Source of the DNA: a virus | Length of the DNA stretch: 30,255 nt | Reading direction: 5' to 3' (one strand) | Virus record (IMG/VR): IMGVR_UViG_3300024346_000352 | Span: 1 to 30,255 of that record | Shown: positions 2,233 to 29,035 of the stretch, one piece after another | Layout of the letters: the number at the start of each line of letters is the position of its first letter | Position numbering within the stretch: the first letter of the stretch is position 1 | Translations under genes and position numbers: made by a program | Notes under the pieces: generated by a model | Database searches by the model: none | The model's input: only the letters and a program-made list of their open reading frames with translations | Told to the model about the DNA's origin: nothing

Positions 2233-3443
2233 CAAGTCCACCTAGTCGGTTGCGGGGTGTTATATTCAGTTCTGATTGGGAACAAATACTCTACTAGGTA
2301 GCCTAACGCATCATTCATATGATCAGTGCCATCCTTGTTAGGAATACTTGTACCCTCTTTGTATGTCTGTCTTTCTAAACTCTTAATCGTTTGCTTGCAC
2401 TTAGGGCTTACAAACAAATGCCGCTCACTATCTCCAGACAGTAAACGACTATTAACCGCGTTGATTCTATCCCTGACCAACGGGTGAGCTTTCTTCGCCT
2501 TAACGCTAAATCCTGCGTTTTGTAAGATCGACAAATCAGTCCGACCACCTGCGCTTGTTTTGCGCTGTCTTGATGCAGGGTCAGGATAAATGATACAGTG
2601 CCTATCAGGATACCTATCCTTTATCTCAGCAACCATCTCATCTGTGTTAGACCCATACATAACGATTTCATCTATAGCCAGTAAGTCTTGCCCATGCCTT
2701 AAGCATATAACAGCACTCATTGGGTCTAAGTTGAAATCCATACCAATGTGTAGTGTACCACCATTGTCCTCAATAGGTTCTACTGATAGCTCTCTACTAA
2801 AGGCATAATATATCAAACCAGAGTAAGTCACAAACTCAGCGCAGTATTCTTGGTTGAAAGTGCGCTCGTCTAAGTCCATCTTGGCTTGTTCTATTTCTTC
2901 TGATGGTACATTGCCGCCATCAATGGTTGTGTACTGGTAGCTTTCCCAGTGATCTTTGCCAGTTAAACCATCAGCCCATATATCGTAAAAGTGATTGCGC
3001 CCTTTAGGCGTACCAATAAAAATACAACTTCCCTGACGATCACTCAAACTTGGTCTAATTACCTCACTCCAAGTCTCAGGCTTCATATCTGCAAACTCAT
3101 CTAGCACTACAAAGTCCAATGCCCTACCACGTAGATTGTTAGGTTTCTCTGCACCCTTTAACGCAATCGTTGAGCCGTTAATTAGCTTAATGGTTAATGC
3201 TGTCTCATTCGTCTTGTATATGTACTCTTCTGGAATAGTGTGTATAAGCATATTCCATGCAATTTCCTTTGCAGAACCATAGGTAGGAGCGATATACCAT
3301 ACGTTTCTATTCTTACCGCCTATAGCCGCCCTAAGTATCTCGATAGTAGACAAAAACGTCTTGCCGAACCTACGCCCTGCTACAACAGTTCTAAACCGAG
3401 CAGATGATGTAAATATATCAGTCTGAGGAGTTGTCAGTTGCAT
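2232..3443 (-). CDS. terminase large subunit
   Basis: A 403-residue two-domain packaging motor. ATPase: Walker A AGRRFGKT at residues 22-29, Walker B VVLDE at 112-116, and a coupling motif GTPKGRN near 144-150. Nuclease: RNaseH-like fold with GMDFNLDP at 234-241, YPDPASRQRKTSAGG around 286-300, and DHMNDALGY at 374-382, giving the three acidic metal ligands. It cuts concatemeric DNA and pumps it through the portal. The length is normal for a compact siphovirus TerL. It overlaps TerS by 26 nt and has a weak Shine-Dalgarno, so it is probably translationally coupled. Confidence 0.97.
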   Translation of the reverse strand: MQLTTPQTDIFTSSARFRTVVAGRRFGKTFLSTIEILRAAIGGKNRNVWYIAPTYGSAKEIAWNMLIHTIPEEYIYKTNETALTIKLINGSTIALKGAEKPNNLRGRALDFVVLDEFADMKPETWSEVIRPSLSDRQGSCIFIGTPKGRNHFYDIWADGLTGKDHWESYQYTTIDGGNVPSEEIEQAKMDLDERTFNQEYCAEFVTYSGLIYYAFSRELSVEPIEDNGGTLHIGMDFNLDPMSAVICLRHGQDLLAIDEIVMYGSNTDEMVAEIKDRYPDRHCIIYPDPASRQRKTSAGGRTDLSILQNAGFSVKAKKAHPLVRDRINAVNSRLLSGDSERHLFVSPKCKQTIKSLERQTYKEGTSIPNKDGTDHMNDALGYLVEYLFPIRTEYNTPQPTRWT

Positions 3444-3797: not shown

Positions 3798-4490
3798 TTA
3801 GGAAACTTGGAGCGTACAGGTCGGAGTTGCACCGCCCAGACTAGAGGGGTTCTCTAGTGCCTGCTCTTTTGCACGCTTCGGATAAGGTTTGCTTAAATGC
3901 ATTATAGACTGTTTTGTTTCTTTGTCCAATGCCATTAAATATCTATGTTTTCCCTTTGTATAAAATACAGTAGCGTTAGGGTCTAAATTTTTTCTTACTG
4001 CATCTATATTTTGCTTAACACCTTTACTGTGTACAGATTTAGGATGTGTTTTTTTACCATTGATAATAAAAGCACCCATACTACCTGCATTCATAAGACC
4101 ACTATAAACCCAATTAGTTGCTTGGTAGATTCCGCCATGATGGTTTTGGTCAGCATCAGCATAACTAACCACAAGTTTTAAACCTGTGTTGGCTTTTTTA
4201 AGAAACTTAATTGCTAATGCCATTATCTTACTTACTGGTGTTTTATGTTTTGTTAATGCTATACGTACTAACTCACAACCTTCATCTGCTTTTAAGCCAA
4301 ATGGTTTTAGCATATTGTTGTTAGCACCTCTACCGAATAAAACCACTCCGATAAACTTGCCATCTTCCCATGCACCAACTTTTACCAATTTGCCAACAGG
4401 TATAACACCACTATAATGCCAATTTTCACAAGCATACTTAGCCGCATCAAAACTAGCCCAATCTATTTTTAGTTTAGCATTCTTTGACAT
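3798..4490 (-). CDS. Mom-like adenine DNA modification protein
   Basis: A 230-residue protein of the phage Mu Mom family, which has a GNAT-like fold and converts adenine in phage DNA to N6-(acetamido)adenine, protecting it from host restriction. Visible support: CENWHYSG near residues 16-23; EL/VRIAL after the N-terminal sheet; and VSYADADQNHHGGIYQATNW around 109-128, the YAD...G.IYQA.NW.Y.G signature of the family. The last 25 residues (ENPSSLGGATPTCTLQVS end) do not look like the enzyme core and coincide with a tRNA-like sequence. The ATG overlaps the upstream 68-residue ORF by 17 nt. No zinc-finger Com regulator is present. Family assignment is from pattern recognition; activity is inferred. 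Confidence 0.82.
   Translation of the reverse strand: MSKNAKLKIDWASFDAAKYACENWHYSGVIPVGKLVKVGAWEDGKFIGVVLFGRGANNNMLKPFGLKADEGCELVRIALTKHKTPVSKIMALAIKFLKKANTGLKLVVSYADADQNHHGGIYQATNWVYSGLMNAGSMGAFIINGKKTHPKSVHSKGVKQNIDAVRKNLDPNATVFYTKGKHRYLMALDKETKQSIMHLSKPYPKRAKEQALENPSSLGGATPTCTLQVS
3808..3876 (-). other. tRNA-like sequence at the 3' end of the mom-like gene
   Basis: Read on the minus strand, GCGTGCA (3876-3870) pairs over 7 positions, with one G-U, with TGTACGC (3818-3812), which is followed by T and CCA exactly as in a tRNA 3' end. GGTGCAACTCC (3833-3823) matches the T-arm consensus GGTTCRANTCC at all but one position. A 7-bp perfect hairpin ACTAGAG/CTCTAGT (3858-3852, 3846-3840) stands where an anticodon arm would be. 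There is no D-arm, the loop lacks U33, and one extra base separates the T-stem and acceptor. It is therefore not a decoding tRNA, but a tRNA remnant, mimic or attachment-site core is plausible. Confidence 0.5.
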
Positions 4491-4680
4491 TTTGTACTAA
4501 TTCGCCCCATCTGCTTTTTAATGATTTTTTTGCTTGTTCTAATGTAGCGTTATCCATATTAATCATTCTTACTTTTTTGCCATTCATCTCAAATTCATAC
4601 TTGCGAATCTTAGAACCGCTTTTCTCAGTATCAAAACGACTTAATATGTTTTTGTTTTTTTGTTCATGGTTTAAAATCAT
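4474..4680 (-). CDS. 68-residue hypothetical protein overlapping the mom-like gene
   Basis: A small basic protein with a charged N terminus, a central beta-looking stretch (KYEFEMNGKKVRMINM) and a C-terminal helix (LEQAKKSLKSRWGELVQNV). It starts in a 4-nt ATGA overlap with the ParB-like gene, with an AGGGG ribosome site, and its end overlaps the Mom-like start by 17 nt. The overlap recalls the com-mom arrangement of phage Mu, but only one cysteine is present, so it is not a Com-type zinc finger. A role in expression or activity of the Mom-like protein is conceivable from position only. Confidence 0.7.
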   Translation of the reverse strand: MILNHEQKNKNILSRFDTEKSGSKIRKYEFEMNGKKVRMINMDNATLEQAKKSLKSRWGELVQNVKEC

Positions 4681-5195
4681 TCTACACCCCTCATATCAAA
4701 CTCTTTTCCACAATGTGGACAATCTATCCACTTAGGGTCAAGTTCATCTAACTGACCTTGCTCTTCTTCTGTAGCAGGGTCAAAATTAGGCTCAAATGTA
4801 TCTGTCAAGCTCTTAAGCATATCATCATCAAACCCAAGAACATCTAAATTAAATTCTAATTCTGTTAATCTGCTAACTTCAATTTTCAATGCATCTATAT
4901 CCCAGTCAGCATTTAATGCTAATTGGTTGTCAGCAATAACATAGGCTTTGCGCTGTGCCTCTGTAAGCCCCTCTAGCGTAATGGTAGGCACTTCACCGAG
5001 CTTTAGCTTTTGTGCCGCTAGAAGCCGACCATGCCCTGCTATTATGCTGTCTTGCTCATCTATCAATATGGGGTTAGTAAAACCAAACTCTTTAATACTA
5101 GAAGCCACCTGTTGAACCTGCTGTTCGCTGTGTGTTCTACTATTATTGACGTATGGTATTAACTCCCCAGTTTCCCTATAGTTTATTTTTAACAT
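4677..5195 (-). CDS. ParB/sulfiredoxin-fold nuclease-like protein
   Basis: A 172-residue protein with the ParB N-terminal domain: LIPYVNNSRTHSEQQVQQVA near 12-31, IKEFGFTNPILID near 34-46, and IIAGHGRLLAAQKL at 51-64, with the GHGR box at 54-57. YVIADNQLALNADWDI (85-100) is the usual extension of phage ParB-like proteins. Residues 159-162 form a single CPHC knuckle near the C terminus. In other phages this domain is often fused to, or encoded next to, DNA modification enzymes; here it sits two genes before the Mom-like gene. It has no HTH partition domain, so plasmid-style partition is unlikely. DNA binding or nucleotide hydrolysis is inferred. Confidence 0.8.
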   Translation of the reverse strand: MLKINYRETGELIPYVNNSRTHSEQQVQQVASSIKEFGFTNPILIDEQDSIIAGHGRLLAAQKLKLGEVPTITLEGLTEAQRKAYVIADNQLALNADWDIDALKIEVSRLTELEFNLDVLGFDDDMLKSLTDTFEPNFDPATEEEQGQLDELDPKWIDCPHCGKEFDMRGVE

Positions 5196-7190: not shown

Positions 7191-7622
7191 TTAATATTCG
7201 CCTATTCTGTACTCTTCATCTTTGATTTTTTCCTTTAATTCCCTCTGAAATTCGATCACTTCTACCCTGTTAAACTTGGGTGCAGGTCTCCATGCTAGTT
7301 TTTGCATCGCTCTAATACGCCTAGCTCCGTACATATCTTCCATGTAGATGCGGTAGGCTTCCTGTATTTTGGTAGTCTTCATACCATACAAATTGCACAC
7401 GGCACATTGGGGTGAAATATTTTGCTCGAACAGCTTAAAAACAGTGTGTCTTCTGCTGTAAAAGTGACCCCCTTGCATAGCCTTATAGTGATCTACCTTG
7501 CCGCAGGTTACGCACTGGCAGTAGCCGTTATCGTCTGAGGCTTTGAGCCTGACGTATCTTTGCAATAGCTTCGCGGCTTTCTCTACCTCTTGGGCTACTG
7601 TTGCTTTTTTGCGCTTTGCCAT
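7191..7622 (-). CDS. ninG: NinG/Rap-like recombination protein
   Basis: A 143-residue protein of the lambda NinG (Rap) family, a structure-specific endonuclease that acts on recombination intermediates. Order of motifs: basic N-terminal helix; CQCVTCG near 36-42; QGGHFYSRRH near 51-60 with the conserved His; FEQNISPQCAVCN near 65-77 with the second CxxC. The two cysteine pairs form a zinc site and the GGHF segment resembles an HNH-type active site. The C-terminal half is helical and basic. Lambda Rap is about 200 residues, so this is a short form. It sits one gene after the metallophosphoesterase in a recombination operon. Confidence 0.88.
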   Translation of the reverse strand: MAKRKKATVAQEVEKAAKLLQRYVRLKASDDNGYCQCVTCGKVDHYKAMQGGHFYSRRHTVFKLFEQNISPQCAVCNLYGMKTTKIQEAYRIYMEDMYGARRIRAMQKLAWRPAPKFNRVEVIEFQRELKEKIKDEEYRIGEY

Positions 7623-9010: not shown

Positions 9011-9469
9011 CTATTGCTCCTGTTGATTTTTTAACTCCGCATATTCGCTTTCTCGCGGTATGGTTAGTTTTATCCCCTGCTCACTTGCCCAATGATAGCA
9101 CTGATCTAAGAAATGCACCATCTCGCCCTTGCCCAGTTGGCTACTGCGTTTAACCTGACCACTGATTTCGGTCTTGCTTATCCTGAAATCATCTGTGCCT
9201 AAGAATCTGCGCTTCAACCAGAGCTTCCACGCCTCTACTGGGTCGCCCTCTGCCACCTCAAAACCTTTCTTTTTCATACCCTTTACGATCTCCCTGCACC
9301 ACATATGCAACAGCGCATTTTGGTTTAGGCTTCTTGGGTTCTGATACAGCTCTAGCTTTACCGATAAAGGGGTGGTGAAATCCCAGTTGAGCATATCCTC
9401 AATTAGGAACTTCACCTTTTTATTGACTTCTTCTTTGTTGTTAAACTTCACAAATGCACCCTCTGTCAT
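9011..9469 (-). CDS. ninB: NinB-like recombination protein
   Basis: A 152-residue protein of the lambda NinB (Orf) family, a recombination mediator that binds SSB and ssDNA and can replace RecFOR. The signature RSLNQNALLHMWCREIVKGM lies near 47-66, followed by AWKLWLKRRFLG and a C-terminal helix (HFLDQCYHWASEQGI). Length matches the family (about 145). It starts in an ATGA overlap with the preceding small gene and is followed directly by the metallophosphoesterase, giving a NinB-MPE-zinc ribbon-NinG cassette. Confidence 0.88.
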   Translation of the reverse strand: MTEGAFVKFNNKEEVNKKVKFLIEDMLNWDFTTPLSVKLELYQNPRSLNQNALLHMWCREIVKGMKKKGFEVAEGDPVEAWKLWLKRRFLGTDDFRISKTEISGQVKRSSQLGKGEMVHFLDQCYHWASEQGIKLTIPRESEYAELKNQQEQ

Positions 9470-11539: not shown

Positions 11540-12163
11540 CTAGTTGGCTTGTCTAAATTCAGGTAGTTTCATTATGGCGCGTTCTTGAGTAGTGAACACC
11601 CCACCTTTGCTTGGTGCTTTCCATAGCAGTTGTTTTTCTGTGTCGCTTAACTCTTTCCATGCCTCGTTAGCTGTCGAATAATCATTAACCGCTATGCCGT
11701 CTTTGATAGCTTTAACGCTAGGCAGTAGGTCAACAATCATATCCTGATATTCTTGGGTTTTGGTTTGCTCTGATCTAAGCATAGCTGACTCTGCATCGTC
11801 ATCGGCAGTTGGAATACCTGCGATAGATTGCAATGCATAACGTCTTGCGTAGGTGATCGCTGAACCTGCGGCTTGTGGGTCTTGCTTTACGATAGGCAGT
11901 ACAAATTCTGACTCTATCCATTGACCTGAAACGTGCATCAGTCTAGTGGCTACACCTACACCAGTCTCACTGTTAACAGGAAACTGTGTATAGCTTAATC
12001 CGTTATCTGTGAAAGGCTGTTTGATTGCCTTGATAACTGACGTTAAATCAGCGTAGCTAGACTTGAAAAAAGGGTTAGAGCTGTCTTTAACAGCACCCCC
12101 CATTTGACCTTGCGCCAAGCATAAAGCTAATGCAATCTCATTAGTTTCTTCACTATATTTCAT
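11540..12163 (-). CDS. erf: ERF-family single-strand annealing protein
   Basis: A 207-residue P22 Erf-like recombinase, which anneals complementary ssDNA during recombination-dependent replication and genome circularisation. Family signatures: MGGAVKDSSNPFFKSSYADL near 21-40, IKQPFTDNGLSYTQ, and DPQAAGSAITYARRYAL followed by GIPTADDDAE near 95-125. The C-terminal third is divergent, as usual. I choose the ATG at 12163, 7 nt after GGGAG; a TTG at 12169 is too close to it. It overlaps the preceding gene by 11 nt. The SSB-like gene follows. Confidence 0.93.
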   Translation of the reverse strand: MKYSEETNEIALALCLAQGQMGGAVKDSSNPFFKSSYADLTSVIKAIKQPFTDNGLSYTQFPVNSETGVGVATRLMHVSGQWIESEFVLPIVKQDPQAAGSAITYARRYALQSIAGIPTADDDAESAMLRSEQTKTQEYQDMIVDLLPSVKAIKDGIAVNDYSTANEAWKELSDTEKQLLWKAPSKGGVFTTQERAIMKLPEFRQAN

Positions 12164-12389
12164 TTTCAATCTCCCATGTTTTTAGTTCTTCATATATGGC
12201 TTTTCTTGTGTAAACAGCACCATCAGATGTTTTTTCACCTTGTAGTGCCATTGTTAAGTAAGTTGCGGCTTTCTCAAGACCCATGTCGCCATAAACCTGA
12301 CGAGCGAACCTGTAAGTTTCTTCATCATTTGTTAACCATAAGCTGACATTCCAAGCGTTCCAACTTCTATGCCCGTTATATTTTTTCAT
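12153..12389 (-). CDS. DUF7249-like small protein
   Basis: A 78-residue protein beginning MKKYNGHRSWNAWNVSLWLT followed by NDEETYRFARQ. This is the NG...(Y/A)WNV.LW..NDE signature of a small family widespread in phages and occasionally named DUF7249. Function is unknown; the Trp-rich N terminus and helical C terminus are conserved. It overlaps both neighbours by 11-14 nt. Confidence 0.8.
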   Translation of the reverse strand: MKKYNGHRSWNAWNVSLWLTNDEETYRFARQVYGDMGLEKAATYLTMALQGEKTSDGAVYTRKAIYEELKTWEIENEI

Positions 12390-26281: not shown

Positions 26282-27685
26282 TTATCTACCTACTAACTGT
26301 GAAGCGAATGAACCGCCTCTGCGTTTAGCATTCAGAACAGCTTGCTTAGAGGCTTCTTGAATTTGTGGCAGTAGATTAGTGATCTCTGCTCTCACTGTTG
26401 ATTGTACACCAGTAGTCACATTGATTGTTTGATTAATTACTACACCCTGACTTTGACCTTTGGTGTGATCAATAACTGTTTCATTAGGGTGAAGCATAGC
26501 AGGAAAACCACCCTTGCCATCCATGCCACCTGCTCTAGCACCGCCACCAGTAAAACCACCGCCATCATAGCTTGATCTTTGTGCATAGGGTACATATTGA
26601 CCACCGCTAGATGGAAAGAACTGATCAGCCATATTAATGTTGGCATTATTTCTAAGCGCCTGCAATTGACCTTGTAGCTCGGCAATCTCTTTTCTCGTAT
26701 CTGCTACGCCCTGTGCAAATGGATTTCTAAGCTGTGTACCATTGAATAAACCAACAATCTGATTGTATATGCCAATAGTTGCTTTGAAGGTTTCATTCAG
26801 TGTGCTTTTTACAAACCACTCCATCTTTGTCAATTCTAGCTTTACACTAACTATGGATGTTTGAAAGTTGTTTAAAGCATTCACAACCGAATCAAATGAA
26901 CTGATTAAAAACCGCGCTACCTTTACGCCTACATTGCCAGATTCGTTTTGCTTTTTGATAAACTGAACAAATCTATCCGATAGGTCTTCAATGACAGGTG
27001 CAAACTCGACAGTCATAGCTTGTACAACACCCATAATCGCTGTCTTAGCCTTAGTAAACGCATCATTGGCATCTTCTATAGCCTTAGCATCAACACCGCT
27101 TAAACTGATTCCTAGATCGTCTGCTTCTTCTGCCATAGTTTCAAGGGCGACAGAACCGCCTGCTAAGGTGTTTACAAGAGCAACACCTTCAGAGTCAAAC
27201 AGCTTCATTGCTAATCGAACACGATCTGACTGAGTACCTACACCCGCCATAGCATCTGCGACTAGCCCCATCTGTTCATCTAAGGGTAGCTTCACTAAGG
27301 ATTCAGCATCTAGGTTTAATTCTTTTAGCGCATTAACAGCCTCGCCTGTGCCTAGTGCCGCCTCACTTGCTCTACGGGTAAAACGCTGTAAAGCCATATC
27401 CATTGTTTCAGATGAAACGCCTGTGAGTTCTGCCGCATACCTCAGACCAGATAGTGCCTCTGTCGTGATGCCAATCTTAGATGCTGTTTTAGCTAGACTG
27501 TCACCTGCTCTAAGGCTATTTGAAATCAGCGCGCCAAAACCTGCCGCACCAACTAGACCAACAATAGCTGTCTTAGTGCTAGCGACTGCGCCACCTACTT
27601 TCTTAAGTCCTGCGGTAGCAGTGCGAAAGGCTTTCTTGGTATTGTCAAAAGCCTTGATCGTGATATTTAGTTTTTGGTTAGCCAT
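26282..27685 (-). CDS. tape measure protein
   Basis: A 467-residue protein directly after the tail chaperones. The N-terminal helical part (IKAFDNTKKAFRTATAGLKK, then LRAGDSLAKTASKIGITTEA and AELTGVSSETMDMALQRF) is characteristic of short tape measures of the lambda-GTA type. Hydrophobic segments lie at about 31-58. The C-terminal part has a GGGFTGGGARAGG linker and AMLHPNETVIDHTKGQS, a conserved P.E.V.....G end block. By the usual 1.5 A per residue, the tail would be about 70 nm long. Its ATG lies inside the last codons of the frameshift extension. Confidence 0.92.
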   Translation of the reverse strand: MANQKLNITIKAFDNTKKAFRTATAGLKKVGGAVASTKTAIVGLVGAAGFGALISNSLRAGDSLAKTASKIGITTEALSGLRYAAELTGVSSETMDMALQRFTRRASEAALGTGEAVNALKELNLDAESLVKLPLDEQMGLVADAMAGVGTQSDRVRLAMKLFDSEGVALVNTLAGGSVALETMAEEADDLGISLSGVDAKAIEDANDAFTKAKTAIMGVVQAMTVEFAPVIEDLSDRFVQFIKKQNESGNVGVKVARFLISSFDSVVNALNNFQTSIVSVKLELTKMEWFVKSTLNETFKATIGIYNQIVGLFNGTQLRNPFAQGVADTRKEIAELQGQLQALRNNANINMADQFFPSSGGQYVPYAQRSSYDGGGFTGGGARAGGMDGKGGFPAMLHPNETVIDHTKGQSQGVVINQTINVTTGVQSTVRAEITNLLPQIQEASKQAVLNAKRRGGSFASQLVGR

Positions 27686-27821
27686 CGGAATCCTTTAGTA
27701 TTTCAAAATATGCCATCCACTCTCGATACTCTGAAAGACTTATTTGCTCTACTTCTTCTATAGTCTTGGAAAGCCGATCAGCCAAAGATATTAAATTCAA
27801 TCTATGGTGATCGGTTCTTAG
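27678..27821 (-). CDS. tail assembly chaperone extension made by -1 frameshift
   Basis: A 47-codon frame in the -1 register that has no start of its own. It continues from the slippery sequence A AAA AAC at the end of the 115-residue chaperone and ends with TAA inside the tape measure start. Its sequence includes LISLADRLSKTIEEVEQISL then SEYREWMAYFEIL, the L.(L)SE(Y/F)..W.AYF.I pattern of gpT-type extensions. The fusion would be 162 residues. In lambda the equivalent gpGT carries the T domain that contacts the tail tube protein. Confidence 0.85.
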   Translation of the reverse strand, partial: LRTDHHRLNLISLADRLSKTIEEVEQISLSEYREWMAYFEILKDSDG

Positions 27822-27827
27822 TTTTTT
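27774..27827 (-). promoter_or_regulatory. -1 programmed ribosomal frameshift signal
   Basis: The heptamer A AAA AAC (27827-27821) is in the correct register (GTA AAA AAC TAA), just before the zero-frame stop. Six nt later, CCGATCA (27814-27808) pairs perfectly with TGATCGG (27780-27774) across a 27-nt loop, a stem at the expected distance for stimulating slippage. Heptamer, register, spacing, stem and open -1 frame all agree. Confidence 0.85.
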
Positions 27828-28165
27828 ACTAAATCTTCCTCAGACTCTAAGTCAGCAAACATCTGATTGGCGATATTAGATATAACATCTGTATGCTCGC
27901 CCATCAATTCCATTCTATCGTCTGCCGCAGTAAACAGCCTCTCACCACTTTGATCTTCTGCTTTCATAATAATCAGATCAACCATAGCGGCTATCGTAGT
28001 GTTGTTCAAAAAGTTAGGGTGCTTCTTCTGTAGTTGGTTCATGTCGTAACAAGTAATCGGTCTACAATACAACTTGAACGCTCCAGAATCGTCACCCCAC
28101 TCAGGCACGTCAACTTCTCTTACCTTAACTTCTCTGCGCGTACGCAACTCTTTTGCTAGTCCCAT
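27818..28165 (-). CDS. tail assembly chaperone (gpG-like)
   Basis: A 115-residue protein between tail tube and tape measure genes. VREVDVPEWGDDSGAFKLYC at 16-35 is the typical V....W......L...R segment of tail chaperones (phage TAC), followed by a helical C-terminal half (AAMVDLIIMKAEDQ and LFTAADDRMELM). It binds the tape measure while the tail tube polymerises and is absent from the virion. About a few percent of ribosomes are expected to shift -1 near its end, giving the longer form. GGGGGTTATAAACT before the ATG provides the ribosome site. Confidence 0.85.
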   Translation of the reverse strand: MGLAKELRTRREVKVREVDVPEWGDDSGAFKLYCRPITCYDMNQLQKKHPNFLNNTTIAAMVDLIIMKAEDQSGERLFTAADDRMELMGEHTDVISNIANQMFADLESEEDLVKN

Positions 28166-28183
28166 AGTTTATAACCCCCGTTA

Positions 28184-28582
28184 TTATGCTGATGCTTCTG
28201 TTACTGCGCCTGTAGCTTGGATAGAAAAAGATGCTTCAACCATGCCGTCAAAAGATACGCTGATAGACTTATCAGTTACAAAGCCCTCACCAACATACTT
28301 TTTGCCAGTACCTACGCCATTAGGATAGATTTCAAAATCAATCTTAGATGAAACGTCTAAGTCATCCTGAGCTGAATCTGTAGAATCCCAGTAGCATTCT
28401 AAGCTAACTGTAGCTGTCTTCTGACCTGCTAAGTATGTTCTGCTAGTTTCGCCCATAGATGTTGATTCAATAGTGTCTGCTGTTTCATCAATGTTAAAAG
28501 AGCGTACTTCTGCCACTGTTGCTAATGAACCGCCATCAGTAACGAGTTTCACTATGCCGCTATTACCTGTTGCACTTGCCAT
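28184..28582 (-). CDS. major tail (tube) protein
   Basis: A 132-residue beta-sandwich-type protein: MASATGNSGIVKLVTDGGSL, then VAEVRSFNIDETADTIESTS, TVSLECYWDSTDSAQDDLDV and SISVSFDGMVEASFSIQATG. These are the V..V.S......D..D.TS.....T...G......L......D and F....G.....F...G blocks of the phage tail tube family (gpV/gp17.1-like). It polymerises around the tape measure. No C-terminal Ig domain is attached. Placement between tail terminator and chaperone is canonical. Confidence 0.88.
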   Translation of the reverse strand: MASATGNSGIVKLVTDGGSLATVAEVRSFNIDETADTIESTSMGETSRTYLAGQKTATVSLECYWDSTDSAQDDLDVSSKIDFEIYPNGVGTGKKYVGEGFVTDKSISVSFDGMVEASFSIQATGAVTEASA

Positions 28583-28600: not shown

Positions 28601-29035
28601 TTAAAGTGTACCGCGCTGATACTTATACAGTACACGCAGAGTTAAAATCACACCGCCAATCGGTGCTATAGAACCTTCATCTGTCTCGACACTAACAATC
28701 TGTGTATCTAGGGCAACACCGCCTCTAGTTCTGTCAGTATCAAGACTTTCCTCAACAGCCTCAATGATCTTGTTTCTAGCAGTGTCTATCTGACTGCCTT
28801 TCACATAGCATACAAGCTGATAGTTAATCGTTGCCATCCTGTGAGATATAGAGCCACCGACAGTATTGTCTTCTCTGTCCTCGTCTGCGCTCTGCACCAA
28901 GATAGCAGGAAACTGAGCATTCGATAGCTTCTCAAAATCAAATGGCTCTCTGGTTACATACTTCACCTTAACAGGCTTTGCAATCTGCTCAAGTGTATCT
29001 ACCAAGTCAACCGCTATCTGTTCTCTAATGCTCAT
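28601..29035 (-). CDS. tail terminator-like protein
   Basis: A 144-residue alpha/beta protein: IREQIAVDLVDTLEQIAKPV at the start, FPAILVQSADEDREDNTVGG, and INYQLVCYVKGSQIDTARNK in the middle. This is the layout of gpU/HK97 gp10-neighbour tail terminators that cap the tail tube and join it to the neck. It starts in an ATGA overlap with the preceding gene. Position before the tube gene fits. Identity by fold pattern and place, so moderate confidence. Confidence 0.75.
   Translation of the reverse strand: MSIREQIAVDLVDTLEQIAKPVKVKYVTREPFDFEKLSNAQFPAILVQSADEDREDNTVGGSISHRMATINYQLVCYVKGSQIDTARNKIIEAVEESLDTDRTRGGVALDTQIVSVETDEGSIAPIGGVILTLRVLYKYQRGTL

Follow-up and report, generated by a model that had tools for sequence, protein, structure and literature searches.

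Tail gene locus and candidate slip site

We analyzed a candidate programmed −1 frameshift signal at the end of a tail assembly chaperone gene in a 30,255-nucleotide (nt) stretch of viral DNA (IMG/VR record IMGVR_UViG_3300024346_000352), hereafter the window; all coordinates refer to the window, minus strand. Gene order on this strand runs from a tail terminator protein (28601–29035; Pfam PF23818, E = 1.7e-7) through the major tail tube protein (28184–28582; Pfam Phage_tail_2, E = 5.5e-8; phrog_10528, E = 7.9e-16) and a gpG-like chaperone of 115 amino acids (aa) (27818–28165; phrog_344 'tail assembly chaperone', E = 1.6e-7) to a 467-aa tape measure protein with an ATG at 27685 (26282–27685; phrog_9483 'tail length tape measure protein', E = 8.7e-67). 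The chaperone gene ends in the codons GTA AAA AAC TAA, which places the slippery heptamer A AAA AAC (27821–27827) in the X XXY YYZ register directly before the zero-frame stop (27818–27820), as the sequence-only reading of this DNA had proposed. Six bases, TAAGAA, separate the heptamer from an extended hairpin (27774–27814), whose 7-base-pair (bp) outer stem, CCGATCA (27814–27808) paired with TGATCGG (27780–27774), had likewise been located correctly. A Shine-Dalgarno-like GAGG (27838–27841), which pooled relatives point to as a possible upstream stimulator, lies 10 nt 5′ of the heptamer.

The −1 frame (27678–27821 including its stop; phrog_337 'tail protein', E = 1.9e-5), which we refer to as the T domain, spans 47 open codons (27821–27681), and its stop (27680–27678) lies within the overlapping start of the tape measure gene. 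The earlier claim of a 47-codon frame ending in this position was right in coordinates and counts, and so was the length of the fusion product predicted from the sequence, 115 + 47 = 162 aa. Gene order, the phrog_344 and phrog_337 matches, a heptamer in all chaperone loci found and purifying selection on the −1 frame (both described below) all support the gpG/gpGT interpretation offered at the time, and we consider it very probable that a programmed −1 ribosomal frameshift of this type at A AAA AAC yields a chaperone–T fusion.

The combination of heptamer, open −1 frame and downstream fold in the window is more than chance. For this comparison, we collected in-frame X XXY YYZ heptamers (Y = A or T) from 38 minus-strand open reading frames of at least 80 aa, omitting a nested one (26440–26685). 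Only one of the 40 heptamers, that at 27827–27821, is followed by a 47-codon open −1 frame (next longest, 35 codons), and only 0.1% of 7088 −1-frame stretches of 47 codons are open. The same site has the most stable downstream fold of the 40 (−17.1 kcal/mol; next, −12.2 kcal/mol), a stability reached by 2 of 1209 50-nt windows, one of which may be the site itself. Between 27500 and 28300, we found no consensus-like transcription terminator or promoter site, and the sole Rfam match on 27600–28200 was a chance-level hit to a nematode small nucleolar RNA on the opposite strand.

The identity of the chaperone gene is indicated by its position between the tube and tape measure genes and by its similarity to 'putative tail assembly chaperone' genes of five Roseobacter phages (40–42% identity over 96% of its length). 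Searching the PDB with a chaperone sequence profile returned nothing usable (best E = 0.059), and neither the chaperone nor T matched NCBIfam at E ≤ 0.5. An AlphaFold model of the chaperone (mean predicted local distance difference test score 75.6) had no Foldseek match at E ≤ 0.001 in the PDB or among viral models, with weak scores for the HK97 chaperone 2ob9 (E = 2.3) and YqbN 3klu (E = 5.2). The best match of a second structural comparison was again 2ob9 (Z = 3.8 over 53 residues at 2.0 Å); this likeness of the model is too weak to count.

The heptamer and the T frame across relatives

A tblastn search with the chaperone identified eight phage records, from six Roseobacter and two Pelagibacter phages, of which all except CRP-822 were retrieved. 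Combined with 76 IMG/VR loci and the window, these seven gave 84 chaperone loci (66 distinct). Loss of the heptamer in close relatives had been named as an outcome that would speak against the proposal; an in-frame slippery heptamer was present at the end of the chaperone gene in all 84 loci, as AAAAAAC in 76 and GGGAAAC in 8. The stop codon follows directly in 81 loci and one codon later in the other 3. On a chaperone-plus-T tree of 50 rows, parsimony places four changes between the two heptamers, two of them forced by well-supported branches. Each exchange of AAA and GGG requires three linked changes, and because it recurred although re-pairing in both sites would fail for intermediates, we infer that both codons must slip. 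The codon preceding AAAAAAC is constrained as well: Ala, Val and Thr codons in this position end in A in 36 of 36 unique cases, against 18–34% elsewhere in the same genes.

A second set was reached through the tape measure gene. From 79 loci, we kept the 32 that were matched from near residue 1 and whose contig was not in the chaperone set, and removal of 10 duplicates left 22 distinct loci. These were scanned for X XXY YYZ (Y = A or T) near a zero-frame stop, following a long zero frame and followed by at least 30 open −1 codons. Such a heptamer was found in 20 of them (4 AAAAAAC, 7 GGGAAAC and 9 AAAAAAG), adjoining the stop in every case; the two loci without a site have less than 220 nt of upstream sequence each. 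The T sequences of two members of this set, L097 and L100, are close to the window's group. In the nine AAAAAAG loci (L098, L105, L107, L137, L139, L140, L141, L143 and L147), the heptamer is directly followed by TAG.

These heptamer types also bear on whether the ribosome or the RNA polymerase would change frame. Were the polymerase to slip on the A6 run, a mixed pool of messenger RNAs would result and the fusion would be translated from altered transcripts. The window does have a run of six A, and some bacterial dnaX genes are described as using transcriptional slippage at long A runs (PMC3711429). The same source describes polymerase slippage sites as often being homopolymers of at least 8, or two shorter ones combined, whereas GGGAAAC, with no run above three, occupies 8 of the 84 chaperone loci and 7 of the 20 further loci. 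Since these lineages lack a long run, we judge transcriptional slippage highly improbable; G3A3 would be a very short case of a combined run, which makes the argument strong, not complete. Ribosomal shifting also accords with the heptamer being exactly in the X XXY YYZ register and with the hairpin that begins 6 nt after it.

For the T domain itself, selection was estimated in 41 of the 52 distinct regions (omitting L006, L007, L074, L076, L077, L079, L081, L082, L001, L004 and L005). Past the hairpin (codons 18–41), the ratio of nonsynonymous to synonymous polymorphism (pN/pS) was 0.32 in the −1 frame, compared with 1.04 and 1.82 for the remaining frames (820 pairs from 41 sequences). By this sequence comparison, the −1 frame is a real coding frame under purifying selection. 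Profile matches are consistent with a tail function: 29 of 33 T sequences matched phrog_337 at E ≤ 0.01, and Pfam Phage_tail_T gave a weak match, with E = 0.15 in the window, short of the cut-off, and E ≤ 0.1 in 9 of the 33. The sequence-only reading had expected automatic annotation to miss the T part. This holds in the seven published relatives retrieved, where the gap between chaperone and tape measure carries no annotated coding sequence. Our analysis assigns this unlabelled gap to the T domain throughout the phage group, that is, in the seven published genomes and the 76 IMG/VR loci.

A coding T frame could in principle also be a short gene in its own right, with an independent start or with stop–start coupling to the end of the chaperone gene. 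Many relatives have an ATG at codon 8 of the −1 frame, which would suit such an arrangement. In the window, however, codon 8 is TTG, as is codon 13; both lie within the hairpin and are the only start-like codons before the first ATG at codon 36. Codon 8 is TTT, CAT and GTA in L017, L004 and L061, respectively, and in L006 and L007 the first start-like codon comes no earlier than codon 27. As no start codon is common to all relatives, an independent start for T is scarcely credible, and it would leave the slippery heptamer in every locus found unexplained.

Candidate stimulators around the heptamer

The downstream structure was originally described as a 7-bp stem closing a long loop. The stem is real, but the 27-nt loop is not open: folding adds seven further pairs, so that 7 bp, a bulged C, 3 bp, a U·U mismatch, 4 bp and a 10-nt loop make up one 14-bp hairpin of −17.1 kcal/mol (stability z = −4.0; none of 200 shuffles as stable). 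The suggestion that the loop might hide a pseudoknot gained no support within the range covered: pairing of the apical loop with the 60 nt past the stem was no better in the window than in shuffles (p = 0.48). Across relatives, the same candidate pairing reached p < 0.05 in 2 of 15 sequences.

Because the hairpin lies in a coding region, the T frame of each of 20 representatives (less than 80% identical, ungapped) was recoded synonymously 500 times. The window hairpin was more stable than all of its recodings (p = 0.002), and in 14 of the 20 representatives the real sequence outperformed them at p < 0.05. In the 50 nt used, folds of −14 kcal/mol or lower occur in 70 of the 84 loci and in 36 of 45 distinct stretches. 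Third codon positions differ by 0.34 in the hairpin zone, compared with 0.47 in the rest of T and 0.49 in the chaperone.

Covariation was evaluated in an alignment of 39 of the 52 distinct regions (38 distinct rows). Five regions identical to a kept row within 60 bases had been dropped (L039, L042, L045, L049 and L050), and eight distant ones with another spacing or no matching hairpin (L006, L007, L074, L076, L077, L079, L081 and L082) are absent from the counts. For the named structure, 81.4% of cells are paired, against 73.9% in shuffles; cells changed on both sides of a pair number 31, against 11.9; and the score for covariation is 0.239, compared with 0.124 for shuffles and no more than 0.119 for slid structures. 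The latter two values exceed all 500 shuffles, a statistic that ignores the relatedness of the rows. An alternative register of the inner stem scored lower in these counts.

Several observations weigh against a conserved stimulatory hairpin. Its stability is within coding chance in 6 of the 20 representatives (L004, L005, L006, L007, L076 and L081), and RNAalifold predicted no consensus pairs from the 39-sequence alignment. When only pairs changed on both sides are counted, the whole hairpin has 6, against 3.8 in shuffles (20 of 500 as high), and the outer stem 4, against 2.8 (79 of 500 as high). Moreover, the inner stem shifts its register by one between subgroups, and three Roseobacter phage rows fold differently; we tentatively attribute the RNAalifold result to this shift and these three divergent rows. 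Stem loss in relatives had been proposed as a check on the signal, and its outcome is mixed: near relatives retain the structure, whereas several distant ones have lost it or have a different one.

The −1 shift might thus be real but unassisted, with the hairpin and GAGG being by-products of protein coding. Distant relatives that keep the heptamer without the hairpin, the missing RNAalifold consensus and a review according to which some tailed-phage shifts seem to lack stimulators (PMC5009743) would all be compatible with this. The rarity of synonymous recodings that fold as well, and a covariation score above every shuffle and slid control, argue the other way. We regard an unassisted shift as unlikely and conclude from the comparative sequence data that the hairpin probably acts as a frameshift stimulator.

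Upstream of the heptamer, cores similar to the window's GAGG occur at a distance of 7–10 nt in most relatives. With the 20 representatives pooled, the mean energy of pairing with the anti-Shine-Dalgarno sequence was as low in only 8 of 2000 synonymous recodings. Before G, Glu codons are biased toward GAG in this zone (GAG:GAA of 13:2, against 24:62 elsewhere; Fisher p = 2.5e-5). Taken singly, none of the 20 sequences reached p < 0.05 for this pairing (window p = 0.69; lowest 0.088). Moreover, the zone was set with the sequences already in view, and the figures are inflated by relatedness; for these two reasons, we grade the element as suggestive. A stimulatory role of GAGG is slightly favored by the signal across relatives, and not by the window alone.

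Proposed mechanism, genomic context and known systems

In the mechanism we propose, two transfer RNAs would slip together on A AAA AAC, producing a minority 162-aa fusion beside the 115-aa chaperone. The 14-bp hairpin would slow the ribosome and raise the shift rate; its distance of 6 nt fits the commonly studied spacers of 5–9 nt (PMC5009743). The upstream GAGG would possibly help by pairing with 16S ribosomal RNA, giving a dnaX-like anatomy. Lambda makes the two products at a ratio of ~30:1; its tape measure protein is bound by the G part and its tail tube protein by the T part (PMC5009743). By analogy, the zero-frame chaperone would bind the tape measure protein here, with the less abundant fusion joining this complex to the tail tube protein. 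One point against this scheme is that, in E. coli, A AAA AAC is reported to shift far less readily than A AAA AAG (PMC5009743).

In a tentative extension, the site would be a tuned, three-part dnaX-like signal whose stimulators offset the strength of the slip site and hold the chaperone:fusion ratio fixed. Evolution might then, though we find this doubtful, swap the heptamer (A6C, G3A3C, A6G) and yet keep its slipperiness. The weak AAC form would come with a strong hairpin and a Shine-Dalgarno-like element, while one AAAAAAG lineage would do without a hairpin, a correspondence we likewise think rather unlikely. In its favor, six AAAAAAG loci of the L137 type fold weakly downstream (−3.7 to −6.5 kcal/mol), and most AAC loci fold strongly. 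Speaking against it are the folds of the three remaining AAAAAAG loci (−13 to −23 kcal/mol) and of seven GGGAAAC loci of the L108 type (only −8.3 to −9.9 kcal/mol), as well as the combination of AAAAAAC with weak folds in L006, L007 and L081. All such comparisons of heptamer type with fold strength are confounded by descent.

Elsewhere in the window, a Mom-family protein (3798–4490, minus strand; Pfam PF25680, E = 4e-47) lies near a ParB_N-domain protein (4677–5195, minus strand; E = 4.3e-6), and the phage may carry a Mu-Mom-like DNA modification. Lambda-like recombination genes on the minus strand encode NinG (7191–7622; E = 1e-8), NinB (9011–9469; E = 2.2e-6) and an ERF-family protein (11540–12169; E = 8.6e-24). 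In the phage collection, the terminase large subunit (2235–3443, minus strand) ranks Pelagibacter phages first (~54% identity), the chaperone (sense codons 27821–28165, minus strand) Roseobacter phages, and the tape measure protein (sense codons 26285–27685, minus strand) an Alteromonas phage, over part of its length. Because the three genes rank different phages first, this comparison suggests that the tail genes are mosaic.

Among known systems, lambda gpG/gpGT, whose frameshift is conserved among other phages with long tails, resembles the locus in organization, with the same order of tube, chaperone, T frame and tape measure, a heptamer at the chaperone end, a −1 frame that reaches the next gene and a T family match. 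Here, in contrast to lambda, the stop adjoins the heptamer and T has just 47 codons; the lambda T is longer. The slip sites differ as well, lambda using G_GGA_AAG (PMC7618472), whereas the second codon here is AAC. Lambda is also listed among the tailed phages apparently without stimulators (PMC5009743), whereas a hairpin follows the heptamer here. In this last respect the signal resembles that of E. coli dnaX, which combines a Shine-Dalgarno-like element ~10 nt upstream, an A-rich heptamer and a simple stem-loop shortly downstream (PMC5009743, PMC3711429). The stem-loop here, 6 nt downstream with 14 bp and −17.1 kcal/mol, falls within the 5–9 nt expected of a dnaX-type signal. Beyond being a different gene, dnaX differs in its A_AAA_AAG heptamer (here AAC in the window and all 84 loci, and AAG only in 9 of the 20 tape-measure-linked loci); the Shine-Dalgarno-like element here is weak and seen only across relatives, and the zero-frame product is the shorter one.

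Closer in slip site are the g–t sites of the haloarchaeal viruses HCTV-1 and HCTV-2, G_GGA_AAC and A_AAA_AAC, the same heptamers as found here, although their hosts are archaea (PMC5009743). Closer in descent are the CRP-822-type roseophages and the pelagiphages HTVC026P and HTVC202P, which share a homologous chaperone, A AAA AAC, the adjoining stop and a T frame, and differ from the window in that their hairpin is different or absent. The word 'frameshift' is absent from the main text of the paper on the CRP phages (PMC12629253), and in the open-licence literature on tail-chaperone frameshifts and stimulators we found no description of this phage group, nor of a tail chaperone gene in which an AAC heptamer comes with a conserved hairpin. 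Shift and heptamer are both known, as PMC5009743 covers shifts in tailed phages and lists AAC heptamers in haloarchaeal tailed viruses; what is less common is for a tail chaperone gene to keep a hairpin next to an AAC heptamer. In conclusion, the locus adds a tail-chaperone frameshift that probably carries stimulators, which some tailed phages seem to lack according to that review (PMC5009743), and its relatives, with their differing heptamers and hairpins, form a natural series in which to test how the rate of frameshifting is held constant.
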